Positions 4,401 to 60,702 of a stretch of DNA of 64,000 nucleotides are shown piece by piece. Within the stretch, counting starts at the first letter, position 1, and each line of letters opens with the position of its first letter. The notes below the pieces were generated by a model, which saw only the letters and a program-made list of their open reading frames with translations, was not told the DNA's origin and made no database searches. The position numbers were made by a program, and so were the translations under genes. Source of the stretch: Haladaptatus paucihalophilus DX253 (lineage in GTDB: Archaea; Halobacteriota; Halobacteria; Halobacteriales; Haladaptataceae); contig NZ_AQXI01000001.1 in the NCBI RefSeq assembly GCF_000376445.1, positions 2,753,734-2,817,733 of the forward strand. Direction: 5' to 3'.

Positions 4401-5390
4401 ATGAGCGATTCAAATTACGAAGACGGCGGGTATCGGGCGCAACCGACCGCGATGCTCGGTCGCGGGTCGGTCGTGCTGGCCGTCCTGACGGTGCAGGCCA
4501 TCGCGTTCGGGACGTTGTACGTCATCGGCCAGCCGACCCTCTACGTCGGCGTCGCGCTCGGGAGCGCGGCGCTGCTGGGCTGGCGCGCGAACGACGGCTG
4601 GTTCGGCGTCGCCGCCGCCACGTTCGGCGTCGTCCTCCTGCTGGCGCTCGGGATGCCCCTCGTCATGTTCATCACGCGCCAAAACCCCTCCCTCATCGTC
4701 GAGGCGGCGCGTTCCTCTGAAGTCCACACGATGCTGTATCTCACCATCTACGGTCCGCTGCTCGCCACGGTCGCGTCGCTGGTCTTCGGCGTGCCGCTCG
4801 CCTACCTCCTCGCGCGCGGCTTTTCCGGGCAGGCAATCGTCGAGAGTCTGGTCGACTTGCCCCTCGTGGTTCCCCACTCGGTCGCCGGAATCCTCATCCT
4901 GTTCGGCTTCGGGCGGCGCGGTCTATTCCCGGGCGTGTCGGTGCTGACAACCATCACCGGGATGGTGCTGGCGCTGACGTTCGTGAGCGCGCCGTTCGCG
5001 GTCAACACGACCCGCGAGGCGTTCGAAACCATCGATTCTCGACTCGAATACGCCGCCCGGAGTCACGGCGCGACGCCGTTCGAGACCTTCCGGCGGATTC
5101 AGATTCCCCTCGCGTACCGGGGCATCCTCACAGGCGGCGTCCTCGCGTGGGCGCGCGGCGTCTCGGAGTTCGGCGCGGTCGCGGTCGTCGCCTACAGCGT
5201 GAACTTCTTCTATCCGTTCACCGGCGAGGAAACCGTCGCACAGCACGCTCCGGTGTACATCTTCAACACCTTCACTTCGGCGGGGCTGGCGGACGCGAGC
5301 GCCGTCGCGTTCATCCTGCTGGTGATGAGCGCAGGCATCTTCCTTATCGTTCGACTGCTCACCGACACCGAATCCGGGAGCGTGCTATGA
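4401..5390 (+). CDS. wtpB: Tungstate/molybdate ABC transporter, permease
   Basis: Membrane channel subunit of the WtpABC importer, 329 residues. The EAA loop that docks the ATPase is visible as ARSHGATPFETFRRIQIPL in the C-terminal third, inside a standard binding-protein-dependent permease domain (about residues 115-320). The first roughly 100 residues add two or three extra hydrophobic segments before the core, making it longer than many ModB/WtpB proteins of about 250-280 residues. The ATG at 4401 is preferred to the TTG at 4392. It lies 52 bp after wtpA, and its TGA overlaps the ATG of wtpC in an ATGA junction, so translation is probably coupled. Confidence 0.9.
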   Translation: MSDSNYEDGGYRAQPTAMLGRGSVVLAVLTVQAIAFGTLYVIGQPTLYVGVALGSAALLGWRANDGWFGVAAATFGVVLLLALGMPLVMFITRQNPSLIVEAARSSEVHTMLYLTIYGPLLATVASLVFGVPLAYLLARGFSGQAIVESLVDLPLVVPHSVAGILILFGFGRRGLFPGVSVLTTITGMVLALTFVSAPFAVNTTREAFETIDSRLEYAARSHGATPFETFRRIQIPLAYRGILTGGVLAWARGVSEFGAVAVVAYSVNFFYPFTGEETVAQHAPVYIFNTFTSAGLADASAVAFILLVMSAGIFLIVRLLTDTESGSVL

Positions 5391-6364
5391 GCTTCGAGCT
5401 AGACATTGGCGCGACGTTCACCACACAAGGAACCGACCCGTTCGACCTCGACGCCGAATTCGAAGTCGAGACGGGCGAAACCCTCGTCGTGCTCGGCCCC
5501 AGCGGGAGCGGCAAGACGCTTCTGCTCGAAACGATTGCGGGGTATCACGACCACTCGGGGCGCGTCTTCTTCGATGGGCGGGACGTGACGGACGACCCGC
5601 CGGAGGAGCGGGACTTCGGCTTCGTCTTTCAGGACTACGCGCTCTTCCCGCACCTGACCGTCCGGGAGAACGTCGCGTTCGGCGCGCGATACCACCCGGA
5701 CGCGCTCGACGCGGAATCGGTCCTCGCCGACCTCGGGGTCGCGCACCTCGCCGACCGTTGGCCGCGGACCCTCTCCGGCGGGGAAGCCCAGCGCGTCGCG
5801 CTGGCGCGCTCGCTCGCCATCCGACCCGAGGCGTTGCTGTTGGACGAACCGCTCTCGGCGCTCGACGTGCCGACCCGCGAGGTGCTCCGCGACGACCTTC
5901 AAGACCTCATCGCCGACGTCACCTCGATTTACGTCACCCACAACCGGACGACCGCACGCGCGCTCGCCGACCGCATCGCCGTCATGCGAGACGGCCGCAT
6001 CGTCCAACTCGGCACCGTCGAAGAGGTGTTTCGACGCCCCGCGACACCGTTCGTCGCGTGGTTCACCGGGTCGAACTGCCTTCCCGCGACGGCGTTATCG
6101 GACGAGGTGGTTCCCCAACCGTCCGCGACGCACGTCGCCATCCGACCCGAGTTCGTGGAGCTCGACGGCGCGGCGACGAACGCGTCGCTTTCGGCCACCG
6201 TCGGTCGCGTCACGCCGCGGGACGGTGACAATCGGGTCACGCTCTCGCTCGGCGACGAGGTGTTGACCGCGTTCAGTTCCCGGTCGCTGTCGCCCGGCGA
6301 GACGGTCGCCGTGTCGCTCCCATCGGACCACCGCTGGGCCATCGAGGACGGGAGACCGGAGTAG
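5387..6364 (+). CDS. wtpC: Tungstate/molybdate ABC transporter, ATP-binding protein
   Basis: Cytoplasmic ATPase of the importer, 325 residues. Walker A is GPSGSGKT (about residues 37-44), the Q-loop is FVFQDYALFPHL, the signature is LSGGEAQRVALARSL and Walker B is ALLLDEPLSALD. The switch His is in YVTHN. The last 90 residues contain the TOBE/MOP-like region (CLPATALS, IRPEFVEL) seen in ModC/WtpC/CysA-type ATPases. The start overlaps the end of wtpB by four bases. Downstream is the phased AGT repeat array at 6428-6537, which lies between this stop and a convergent gene. Confidence 0.92.
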   Translation: MSFELDIGATFTTQGTDPFDLDAEFEVETGETLVVLGPSGSGKTLLLETIAGYHDHSGRVFFDGRDVTDDPPEERDFGFVFQDYALFPHLTVRENVAFGARYHPDALDAESVLADLGVAHLADRWPRTLSGGEAQRVALARSLAIRPEALLLDEPLSALDVPTREVLRDDLQDLIADVTSIYVTHNRTTARALADRIAVMRDGRIVQLGTVEEVFRRPATPFVAWFTGSNCLPATALSDEVVPQPSATHVAIRPEFVELDGAATNASLSATVGRVTPRDGDNRVTLSLGDEVLTAFSSRSLSPGETVAVSLPSDHRWAIEDGRPE

Positions 6365-6427
6365 TCGCCGGTCGGCAGGGAACGTCGCGCTGATGTCGCA
6401 GATGCAACCGCTCGTTTCGCGTTTGAT

Positions 6428-6537
6428 AGTATCTTTCAGTACTTATTAGTCGCTTCCAGTAGAAAATAGTGCTCTCCAGCCGCTAATCAGTTTCACAAAA
6501 TCCAAATCAGTAGTTTCAGTGTGGTTCAGTAGCTTCG
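6428..6537. repeat. Helically phased array: AGT every 10 bp (array 1)
   Basis: On the plus strand AGT begins at 6428, 6438, 6448, 6458 and 6468, with AGC at 6478. It resumes at 6489, 6509, 6518 and 6528. The bases between are variable but often end in TTC or TCC, so a unit reads roughly AGTNNNNTTC. The segment is AT-richer than its surroundings and fills the gap between two convergent genes (wtpC and a membrane protein). An array of the same design lies at 59901-60000. No open reading frame of sensible composition covers it. Whether it acts as DNA (protein binding on one helix face, curvature) or RNA is unknown. Confidence 0.75.
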
Positions 6538-6597
6538 TTCCGGCGGTCGAACGTCGGTGCTCGCCGTCGTGAGTTCGCGGTTCGACGCCACGGTCGC

Positions 6598-7416
6598 CTA
6601 TCCGTGAACGGCGGCGGCACCCAGAAAGCCGACGCCCACGAATCCGAACACGAGGAGGGCGTAGGTTTTGACGACCGCGGCGTCCTCTCCGCCCGGCATG
6701 ACGACGACGAGGACGGCGGCGAAGCCGAGGAAGAACGCGCCGAAGGCGGCAAGCGCGTAGCGAACCGCCGGGTTGGGACGTTCGAAGTCGCTCGGTTCCG
6801 CCGCGACGGCGGCAGCGAACACCCGTTTCGCGTCCGCCGCCGCGTCGGTCGGGATGACGACGAACCGCGGCGTGGTGACGTTCGACGCGCCCGGCGCGTA
6901 GGAAAACCAGTGGAGGGTGAGACCGCCGAGGCGGAACCGACGCACGTCCGAGAGTCCGTCGACCGGAACCTCGCGGCCGCGATAGGTCATCGTCCGTTTC
7001 TCGGCGTCGATATCGCCGGTCGATTGGAGCGCCGAGACGAGGACCGCCGGGACCGCGATGAGACCGAACAAGAGGAGGAATCCGAGAACCGTTCCGACGC
7101 CCAGCGTTAGCGAGAACGCACCGGCACCGAACAGCGACGCGACGAACAGCCAGTGCGGTTCGAGATGCGACAGTCCCCCGTCCGCTTCGAACAGCGGGCG
7201 CAGGTGCGTCAGCCAGACGAAGACGGCGAACAGGAATCCGGCGGCCAGCAGTCCGCGTATCGGGAGGGGTCCCCGCAGGAAAAGCGATGCCGCGACAGCG
7301 CCAGCGAACACCCACATCCCGCCGAGGACGCCGAACGAGCAGTAGGACAGCAGCCGAAGGAGACGCGAATCGTCGGGTTCGAACGACCACCCGATTCGGC
7401 GCGGCGGGGAAGACAT
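6598..7416 (-). CDS. Haloarchaeal membrane protein of unknown function
   Basis: A 272-residue integral membrane protein that I do not recognise. Hydrophobic stretches occur near residues 22-50, 53-70, 88-140 in pairs and at the C-terminus (about 220-270), suggesting six or seven helices. They flank a central soluble segment of about 80 residues rich in beta-type sequence (TMTYRGREVPVDGLSDVRRF), which resembles the PH-like domains embedded in some small membrane proteins. The ATG at 7416 is the first in frame. It is convergent with wtpC and stands alone. GC and codon use match the neighbours. Confidence 0.75.
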   Translation of the reverse strand: MSSPPRRIGWSFEPDDSRLLRLLSYCSFGVLGGMWVFAGAVAASLFLRGPLPIRGLLAAGFLFAVFVWLTHLRPLFEADGGLSHLEPHWLFVASLFGAGAFSLTLGVGTVLGFLLLFGLIAVPAVLVSALQSTGDIDAEKRTMTYRGREVPVDGLSDVRRFRLGGLTLHWFSYAPGASNVTTPRFVVIPTDAAADAKRVFAAAVAAEPSDFERPNPAVRYALAAFGAFFLGFAAVLVVVMPGGEDAAVVKTYALLVFGFVGVGFLGAAAVHG

Positions 7417-58662: not shown

Positions 58663-59793
58663 TTACTCGAACCGTTCCACGCTGAACGTCTCGATATCGA
58701 CGGACTCTCCTCGCATTTCGTCCGCGACCAGTTTGCCGCTGTACGGCCCGAGTTGCAGGCCCGTCGCGCCGTGGCCGGTCGCCAGATGAACGCCTTCGAC
58801 GGTCGGAACCGCGCCCAACACGGGGAGTTGGTCGGCGGAGCGCGGACGAAGCCCGACGCGAACCTCGTCGATTTCCGCGTCGGCGAGGCCGGGCGCGACG
58901 CGGAGCGCCTCGCCGAGCACTTCGTGGACGCCCGCGGCCGTCGTGTGCGGTGCGAACCCCGAACCGACTTCGCGGGTCGCGCCGACCGCCACGCGGTTGT
59001 CCGGCCACGGGACCATGTAGTGGCCGTGGAACGGGCTGAGGATGGGCCACGACGACGTGTCCGTCTCGCCCAAATCGAGGTGGATGATCTGACCGCGCTG
59101 GGGTTCGACGGGAATCGACACGCCGAGCGACTCCGCGAAGCGGGGCGACCACGCGCCACCGGCGACGGCGACCGCATCCGATTCGTACCGCCCGCCGTCC
59201 GTGGTTTCGACGCCTGTGACCGCGCCGTTCTCGTGGTCGATTCGGGTCACGTCCCCGTCGAGGACGGTGAGCCCGTGGCTTTCTCCCGCCCGGAGCAACG
59301 CGCCGGTGAACGTCCGGGCGTCCACCCGCGCGGCCCCGTCGTAGGCGCGACACCGGCGGGTTTCGGCGAGCGGGGGGTACCGCGATTGCGCCTCCGACGA
59401 CGAGATTTCTTCCGTCGTTCCAGGCGCTGGCTGATCGTACTTCTCCTGTCGCTCCCGAATCCGTTCGGATGCCGCGTCGTACTCCGGTACTTCGTCCTCG
59501 CCCACCGCGACCGAGAGCAGAGAACAGTCGGAGTAGCCCGTCTTCCCGTCCTGTTCGTTTTCGAGGTGCTCGACCAGTTCGGGGTAGTACGCCGCCGCGT
59601 CGAGCGCGAACTCGAACCACCGGTCCGAGGCCGTGCGACTGCTGGTCGCGGGCGAGATGATTCCGGCACCGGCGTCGGTCGCTCGTCCGGTATCGTGGCG
59701 GTCGACGAGGAGCGTGTCCACGTCTTTCCGTGCGAGGTGGTACGCGACGGAGGCGCCGACGATTCCGCCTCCGACGACGATTGCATCGTGCAT
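58663..59793 (-). CDS. FAD-dependent oxidoreductase, DAO family
   Basis: A 376-residue flavoprotein. The FAD motif is IVVGGGIVGASVAYHLARKDVDTLLVDR. The second region is DAGAGIISPATSS. In the middle YESDAVAVAGGAWSPRFAESLG closes the site, and LATGHGATGLQLGPYSGKLVADEM is the typical C-terminus. The ATG at 59793 directly precedes the FAD motif; a longer frame to 59817 is less likely. The substrate is not deducible. Its upstream region contains the second phased repeat array. Confidence 0.86.
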   Translation of the reverse strand: MHDAIVVGGGIVGASVAYHLARKDVDTLLVDRHDTGRATDAGAGIISPATSSRTASDRWFEFALDAAAYYPELVEHLENEQDGKTGYSDCSLLSVAVGEDEVPEYDAASERIRERQEKYDQPAPGTTEEISSSEAQSRYPPLAETRRCRAYDGAARVDARTFTGALLRAGESHGLTVLDGDVTRIDHENGAVTGVETTDGGRYESDAVAVAGGAWSPRFAESLGVSIPVEPQRGQIIHLDLGETDTSSWPILSPFHGHYMVPWPDNRVAVGATREVGSGFAPHTTAAGVHEVLGEALRVAPGLADAEIDEVRVGLRPRSADQLPVLGAVPTVEGVHLATGHGATGLQLGPYSGKLVADEMRGESVDIETFSVERFE

Positions 59794-60105
59794 GACCGGC
59801 CATTGAGCGTCCACCACCTCGTTCCTATGGGTACCGACAATCCGGAACGCTGGTGCGTCGGTCGAACGACCCGAAACCGGCCGCTACCGCGTCGGTAGTC
59901 CAGTACTCTTCAGTAGAGAATGGTATGATTTAGTGAGAAATAGTGCAAGTCAGTGTCATTCACTATGGTTCAGTGCTCCTCGAGAGGATTCAGTATCTCG
60001 TATTTTCGGCGTCGGTCGGGTCGTTCGCGCCGGTTGTGCGCGAATCGTCCCGAGCATCCGTCGTCGAGCGGACGAGCGCGCTCGTTCTCGTCTCTCCGCC
60101 GAACG
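59794..60105. other. 312-bp gap holding the second phased repeat array
   Basis: It lies between two minus-strand genes, the DAO flavoprotein (start 59793) and the NUDIX gene (stop 60106). It contains no credible gene. The array at 59901-60000 is the main feature; the right 100 bp are ordinary GC-rich sequence. No clear TATA box for the flavoprotein gene was found. Confidence 0.55.
59901..60000. repeat. Helically phased array: YAGT every 10 bp (array 2)
   Basis: Ten consecutive 10-bp units keep register. On the plus strand AGT starts at 59902 and 59912, GGT at 59922, AGT at 59932, 59942 and 59952, ACT at 59962, AGT at 59972, a mismatch at 59982, and AGT at 59992. Units often end in TT or AA, giving roughly YAGTNNNNTT. 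It is AT-richer than the surroundings. The same design occurs at 6428-6537. The register is cleaner here than in array 1. Confidence 0.8.
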
Positions 60106-60702
60106 CTATCCCAAATCCGGGTCGGTATCGACGAACCGGTCTATCTTCTCCGGTGCGCGCCAGTCGGTCGTCAGTTCGAGCAGTTGGACCAGAATCCGGC
60201 CCGTCGCGCCCCAGACGGTGTAGCCATCGACGTGGAAGTAGTGGATGACCACCTCGCCGTAGCGCGGATGCTCGCGGTACTCGTTCTCGTAGTTGTCGAA
60301 GTCCGTCAGTTCCGAGACGGGGAGCACGGCGATTTCGGCCACCTCGCGCTCGTCGGGGTCGTACTGCCGGTCGGGAATCCGAACGACGAACGGACTTATC
60401 GAATAGTGGGTTATCGTTCGGATGTCGTCCAGTCGGCCGACGCCGTCGACCTCCTCCGGTCGAAGACCGATTTCCTCGTTGGACTCCCGGACCGCCGTCT
60501 CCCAGAGATCCGCGTCTCCCGGTTCGTGCCCGCCGCCGACGAAACTCATCTGTCCGGGATGTTCGCCGAGGTGATCCGCCCGCTTCGTGAAGAGAAGGGC
60601 TGGGCCGTCGTCGCGGGCGATAATCGGAACGAGGACGGCGGCCTCGCGCTTCTCGTCCGTGACCAACCGTGGTTCGTGGTCGGCCACCCGACCGAGGTTC
60701 AT
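60106..60702 (-). CDS. NUDIX hydrolase, CoA pyrophosphatase-like
   Basis: A 198-residue enzyme that probably cleaves CoA or a related nucleotide pyrophosphate. The NudL/UPF0035 pattern is ALLFTKRADHLGEHPGQMSFVGGG. The Nudix box follows as GHEPGDADLWETAVRESNEEIGL (G-x5-E-x7-RExxEE-x-G), with the catalytic Glu residues in RESNEEIGL. The remainder (YSISPFVVRIPDRQY, EVAEIAVLPVSELTD) fits the fold. It lies 24 bp after a hypothetical gene on the same strand. Confidence 0.87.
   Translation of the reverse strand: MNLGRVADHEPRLVTDEKREAAVLVPIIARDDGPALLFTKRADHLGEHPGQMSFVGGGHEPGDADLWETAVRESNEEIGLRPEEVDGVGRLDDIRTITHYSISPFVVRIPDRQYDPDEREVAEIAVLPVSELTDFDNYENEYREHPRYGEVVIHYFHVDGYTVWGATGRILVQLLELTTDWRAPEKIDRFVDTDPDLG

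Follow-up and report, generated by a model that had tools for sequence, protein, structure and literature searches.

Two arrays of AGT repeats in the window

The window, that is, the whole stretch of 64,000 nucleotides analysed here, holds two arrays in which the triplet AGT recurs at 10-bp intervals. They lie about 53 kb apart, in spacers that are much longer than the syntenic spacers of the relative G008. The features are the following:

5387..6364, + strand: ABC transporter ATPase with a TOBE domain, 3′ end toward array 1
6352..6590: spacer with array 1, about 237 bp; the syntenic G008 spacer is about 20 bp and arrayless
6425..6534, + strand: array 1, with five A units in a row followed by degenerate and phase-shifted ones; profile match G000:C1:2760159-2760212
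6598..7416, − strand: predicted 272-aa protein, 3′ end toward array 1
58663..59793, − strand: FAD-dependent oxidoreductase (DAO, PF01266; Pfam), 5′ end toward array 2
59842..60106: spacer with array 2, about 263 bp; the syntenic G008 spacer is about 27 bp and arrayless
59899..59998, + strand: array 2; best profile match G000:C1:2813634-2813689
59902, 59912, 59932, 59942, 59952, 59972 and 59992, + strand: AGT triplets of array 2
59922 and 59962, + strand: variant triplets of array 2, GGT and ACT, respectively
59979..59988, + strand: interruption of array 2, CTCGAGAGGA
60106..60702, − strand: NUDIX hydrolase (PF00293; Pfam), 3′ end toward array 2

Array 2 spans 100 bp and can be read as ten units in 10-bp register, in the order TCCAGTACTC TTCAGTAGAG AATGGTATGA TTTAGTGAGA AATAGTGCAA GTCAGTGTCA TTCACTATGG TTCAGTGCTC CTCGAGAGGA TTCAGTATCT. 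Parsing in this register reproduces the tally of the preliminary description, namely seven units with AGT, one with GGT, one with ACT and one that does not match; the last fits the second ("B") unit type of other arrays (near YGATRGGA, then TTCAGT). The same parsing bears out the claim that both arrays share their unit, and the gene contexts had also been described correctly: two 3′ ends converge on array 1, and array 2 lies between two minus-strand genes (DAO oxidoreductase and NUDIX hydrolase). The 272-aa protein beside array 1 belongs to no Pfam, NCBIfam or PHROGs family. As had been stated, the arrays are AT-rich, their mean GC content being 34% where the retrieved DNA has about 63%.

The arrays are real and far beyond chance expectation. 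With up to 3 mismatches allowed, a pattern of six units built on array 2 has 5 matches in the window, all within arrays 1 and 2, and none in 100 dinucleotide-preserving shuffles. The neutral pattern (AGT N7)x3 AGT, with at most 1 mismatch, gives 8 window matches where 0.04 are expected. Tandem Repeats Finder reports neither array in the window, because the units have little beyond AGT in common.

Unit design and placement in the genome

The genome to which the window belongs (G000, genus Haladaptatus; 4.32 Mb in six contigs) contains 27 arrays, a total on which lax patterns and a 60-column sequence profile agree; a lax match at C1:2176914 was left out of the count as a GGAGT satellite. The strict pattern of five exact AGT spaced at 10 bp has 14 matches genome-wide, versus 0 for the reversed control. 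The possibility that the two arrays of the window are the only instances in the genome and its relatives is thus excluded by the count.

From 155 AGT units we derived the non-palindromic consensus WWYAGTRNNW, in which W occupies −3 and −2, Y stands at −1 before AGT, +3 is R (mostly A) and the remaining positions are loose and AT-rich; only 3–5 bases are conserved per 10-bp unit. Arrays comprise 4–14 units, and the step is 10.0, not 10.5, across up to 130 bp. In the parsed arrays 167 AGT stand in register and 30 out of it (many of these being AGTAGT), a figure that is partly circular in that AGT itself served to find the arrays. Fillers from one array resemble each other (0.417) no more than fillers from different arrays do (0.410, p = 0.21; at lag 2, p = 0.05), and for this reason the arrays are not young tandem duplications. 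What is kept is the register, not the sequence. The same comparison, along with the silence of Tandem Repeats Finder, led us to reject an ordinary satellite. Interruptions are not random either: in 28 non-AGT units with AGT on both sides, G is found at position 0 in 71%, A at +1 in 64%, G at +4 in 61% and A at +6 in 68%, and many of them fit the second unit near YGATRGGA.

Some stretches of sequence recur locally. Near-identical 20-mers (GCTCTmCGTGAGAGAAyAGT) are found at loci L039 and L285, and L048 and L051 both contain near-identical array sequence (AGTAGTATTCGATGsCATTyAGT). At L048 (5800-5965; G000:C1 ~1518800-1518965) a repeat of about 18–23 bp, gaatcAGTatcgaaacaggagag, lies upstream and merges into the AGT array, and at L043 (G000:C1 ~435340-435400) a run of the heptamer GGATTCT is located to the right of the array, within 150 bp. 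The right flanks of the L054 and L057 arrays have an exact 18-mer in common, around ggcgcgtgcgccagcag, apparently an unrelated dispersed repeat.

Twenty-four arrays are positioned on C1 (2.95 Mb) and three on C3 (364 kb), and the remaining ~1.0 Mb outside these two contigs has none (p = 8e-4 if uniform). Every contig, C3 included, carries an Orc1/Cdc6 gene; with its own copy, C3 is probably a separate replicon. The bias is toward two particular replicons rather than simply chromosome versus plasmid. Two of the three clear Orc1/Cdc6 genes of C1 are no more than 4 kb from an array, a post hoc and weak association.

All 27 arrays lie between genes. Read in array orientation, 7 have convergent, 7 divergent and 13 tandem flanking genes (6 both forward, 7 both reverse); gene starts were called by a simple codon-usage gene finder, with Pfam hits as a check, and the assignment of L286 is uncertain. 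Orientation had been raised earlier as a point to check, and these classes occur at random proportions. The neighbours are unrelated, mostly housekeeping genes; with arrays in every orientation class, this supports the earlier view of a dispersed element tied to no single gene family. One neighbour on C3 (L060:6355-8178) encodes a protein of 607 aa that begins like a HerA/DUF87 ATPase, contains a coiled coil and ends in a winged helix.

Spacing on C1 is wide. The smallest gap between its 24 arrays is 46.6 kb, while 24 random positions have a median smallest gap of 3.6 kb; 7.2 gaps below 46 kb are expected and none is seen (P ~1e-5), these statistics referring to one contig of one genome. Neighbouring C1 arrays are on opposite strands in 17 of 23 cases (one-sided p = 0.017), a strand alternation that is suggestive only.

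Distribution and turnover among relatives

Within a family sample of 28 species, arrays are patchily distributed. Besides the 27 of G000, we found five in G007 (same genus), a count that may be low given that two of them are within ~700 bp of a contig end, two in G003 and one orthologous array each in G002, G004 and G005. G022, from another genus of the family, has about 4 to 7 arrays of a CAGTACAAAC-like variant; G008 retains one weak relic, and the remaining species show none or single weak matches (E = 0.6 to 0.8). Among ~390 genomes of the order, under stricter filters, few others pass E = 0.001 and none has many copies. Matches in G058, G186, G234, G284, G337, G358 and others were rejected, since most are ordinary satellites whose units are near-identical and whose reversed controls are non-zero; G358:C60:450549 and G186:C35:71191 (other family), for instance, carry a CAGTCTRAAC 10-bp array with near-identical units, probably an ordinary satellite. 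In scans of public collections the matches listed were likewise mostly satellites, and the only convincing haloarchaeal one among them is one Natrialba chahannaoensis array.

Array sites turn over fast. G008 is the closest relative found (94% and 97% identity for two proteins) and is largely syntenic; at four compared sites (array 1, array 2, L040 and L058) its spacers measure 20–64 bp, against 237–263 bp including the array in G000. The array site near orc1 is empty in all 8 other congeners examined, which is most simply read as a gain in G000. Of the five G007 arrays only one shares its position with a G000 array; a positional counterpart in G007 exists for the L041 array. At L041 the array of G000 and G007 adjoins the SRP19 gene, and the G008 counterpart (C11:1009293-1009964) is ~670 bp of unrelated sequence with a seeming ORF. 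At L056 (~5860-6098; G000:C1 ~2627300) G008 synteny breaks at the array, the flanks being 92 kb apart in G008, which suggests a rearrangement endpoint at or near this array. A different GC-rich sequence, CTTTCGAGGCGGTCT-like and likewise dispersed, is found near several G007 arrays (L276, L277, L278, L280).

Two sites bear on constraint. In the L039 relic of G008, AGT columns changed in 3 of 15 cases and fillers in 10 of 63; AGT appears to have been lost as fast as the fillers, as if freed from constraint. At L048, G000 differs from each of G002, G004 and G005 in 0 of 9 AGT columns and in 12 of 25 filler columns. This conservation is weak evidence of AGT constraint, since it could be explained by overlap with a core promoter, which is likely here judging from BRE/TATA-like sequence.

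Possible role of the arrays

We consider the chances about even that the arrays are cooperative binding sites of a putative protein that marks the chromosome. Cooperative protein binding is suggested by base-specific direct repeats on one strand, their exact step, the freedom of the fillers and the occasional alternative unit. A role at the level of the chromosome is favoured over a regulon because the arrays disregard the genes around them, keep a minimum distance and are biased toward two replicons. We infer from these features the binding, the class of the protein and the chromosome-level role. Each array would be a landmark in double-stranded DNA to which units of a small sequence-specific protein bind, one per WWYAGTR motif, with neighbours stacking at the 10-bp step; about ten stacked units would build one nucleoprotein body per array. 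Given multimolar intracellular salt, the DNA may be somewhat overtwisted, which would put a 10-bp step on one helix face. Spread over C1 and C3 with ~47 kb or more between them, some 27 of these bodies could anchor or mark the chromosome for its folding, its segregation or the placement of division, and would not be switches for adjacent genes. The role is not essential to the genus, because most congeners have no array or one.

The closest known design is that of the ParMRC centromeres. The parC sites of pB171 and R1 contain several direct repeats at a 10–11 bp step, bound in known cases by stacked ribbon-helix-helix dimers, and ParR of pB171 binds 10-bp direct repeats (PMC9426499). The arrays share the multiple direct repeats and the 10-bp register, and by mechanical analogy to ParR their binder may be placed with the ribbon-helix-helix proteins. 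However, parC adjoins parM/parR on a plasmid, whereas the arrays form 27 sites on the archaeal C1 and C3 with units common only in YAGTR; a Pfam scan detected no ParM or ParR family among their immediate neighbours. SegB sites of Sulfolobales are dispersed in tens over an archaeal chromosome, as are the arrays, and are linked to segregation and organisation, but each is a lone palindrome of 13 bp, TCTAGASTCTAGA, and most fall within genes (PMC12284271); the arrays are non-palindromic, consist of about ten units, lie exclusively between genes and do not have this core. The bacterial nucleoid-occlusion sites of Noc (~70) and SlmA (24–52) are similar in number and dispersed chromosome-wide (PMC4726725), although they are short palindromes of unrelated sequence and not 100-bp arrays. 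SegB, Noc and SlmA sites are functional precedents for tens of dispersed marks. Finally, the TAACTGA repeats of marine Beggiatoaceae are many short intergenic direct-repeat sets of patchy phyletic distribution with no binder identified (PMC4679880). Our arrays resemble them in these respects, but the former are exact head-to-tail heptamers at start codons, while the arrays are 10-bp spaced with free fillers and no gene polarity.

The main rival takes the arrays for operators of a large regulon, in which a transcription factor on AGT repeats controls adjacent genes. Winged-helix-like genes are often autoregulated, and the L048 array lies just upstream of a gene for a 102-aa winged-helix-like protein in four species; seven arrays, moreover, separate divergent genes. 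We nevertheless regard a regulon as unlikely: an equal number is found between two 3′ ends, the gene contexts occur in random proportions, neighbour functions have nothing in common and a 47-kb minimum spacing is not predicted. The 102-aa protein was also rejected as the binder, having no orthologue in array-bearing G007 (best identity 33%) and sitting at a site where the conserved array coincides with a BRE/TATA-like promoter, and no binder gene was seen consistently beside the arrays among their neighbours. The earlier proposal of a dedicated binding protein therefore stands in part: it fits the fixed register, the free fillers and the AGT kept at one orthologous site, while the one candidate examined has no orthologue in G007. 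Still less probable is an origin of the arrays from a small mobile element, as its copies or remnants, or as neutral tandem-repeat debris. Fast site turnover and spacers 170–240 bp longer than those of G008 at the four compared sites would suit such an origin, but an all-against-all flank comparison and an inverted-repeat test found no common flanks, termini or inverted repeats, which also removes a MITE or IS remnant; there is no family-wide sequence beyond the unit and no within-array similarity left, and debris would not be expected to be evenly spaced or to keep the AGT register while fillers diverge.

Stretches rich in A/T at 10-bp periodicity are a classical bending or nucleosome signal, and the low GC content of the arrays would agree with intrinsic bending or histone wrapping that needs no dedicated protein. 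Yet the conserved letters are a specific YAGTR rather than a W/S alternation and, being specific letters on one strand, indicate base recognition; relatives expected to have the same general chromatin proteins lack arrays. We accordingly find this improbable, slightly more so than a mobile origin. An action as RNA, through terminators, 3′ ends or sites of RNA-binding proteins, is the least credible of all. The arrays are AT-rich and intergenic, and the Beggiatoaceae repeats upstream of genes have been proposed as RNA sites (PMC4679880), but orientation to genes is random, the arrays fold no better than shuffles (z 0.26 to 0.82), and the single Rfam match, CRISPR-DR30, is weak (20.1 bits against a cutoff of 50). 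Random orientation together with the lack of RNA fold or Rfam match argues against promoter, terminator and RNA roles; an ordinary promoter or terminator was rejected for the random gene context. A CRISPR array was dismissed too, given the few conserved bases per unit, the sub-cutoff match and the lack of a cas operon among immediate neighbours.

If the arrays are protein-bound chromosomal marks, a more elaborate picture can be drawn, which we offer as tentative and rather doubtful. It would be a lineage-specific haloarchaeal chromosome-marking system of evenly dispersed, replicon-selective, strand-alternating arrays whose units form a two-letter code (YAGTR and YGATRGGA at 10-bp steps); a putative protein would build on these arrays anchor complexes that fold or partition the chromosome, with rapid gain and loss between species. 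We found no published description of these arrays in the open-access literature. Outside Sulfolobales, little is settled about the layout and segregation of archaeal chromosomes. Haladaptatus is culturable, and the 27 putative anchor sites listed here, together with a close relative in which a single decayed relic is left, make the proposal directly testable. The arrays also show how fast a genome-wide set of putative binding arrays can appear and vanish.
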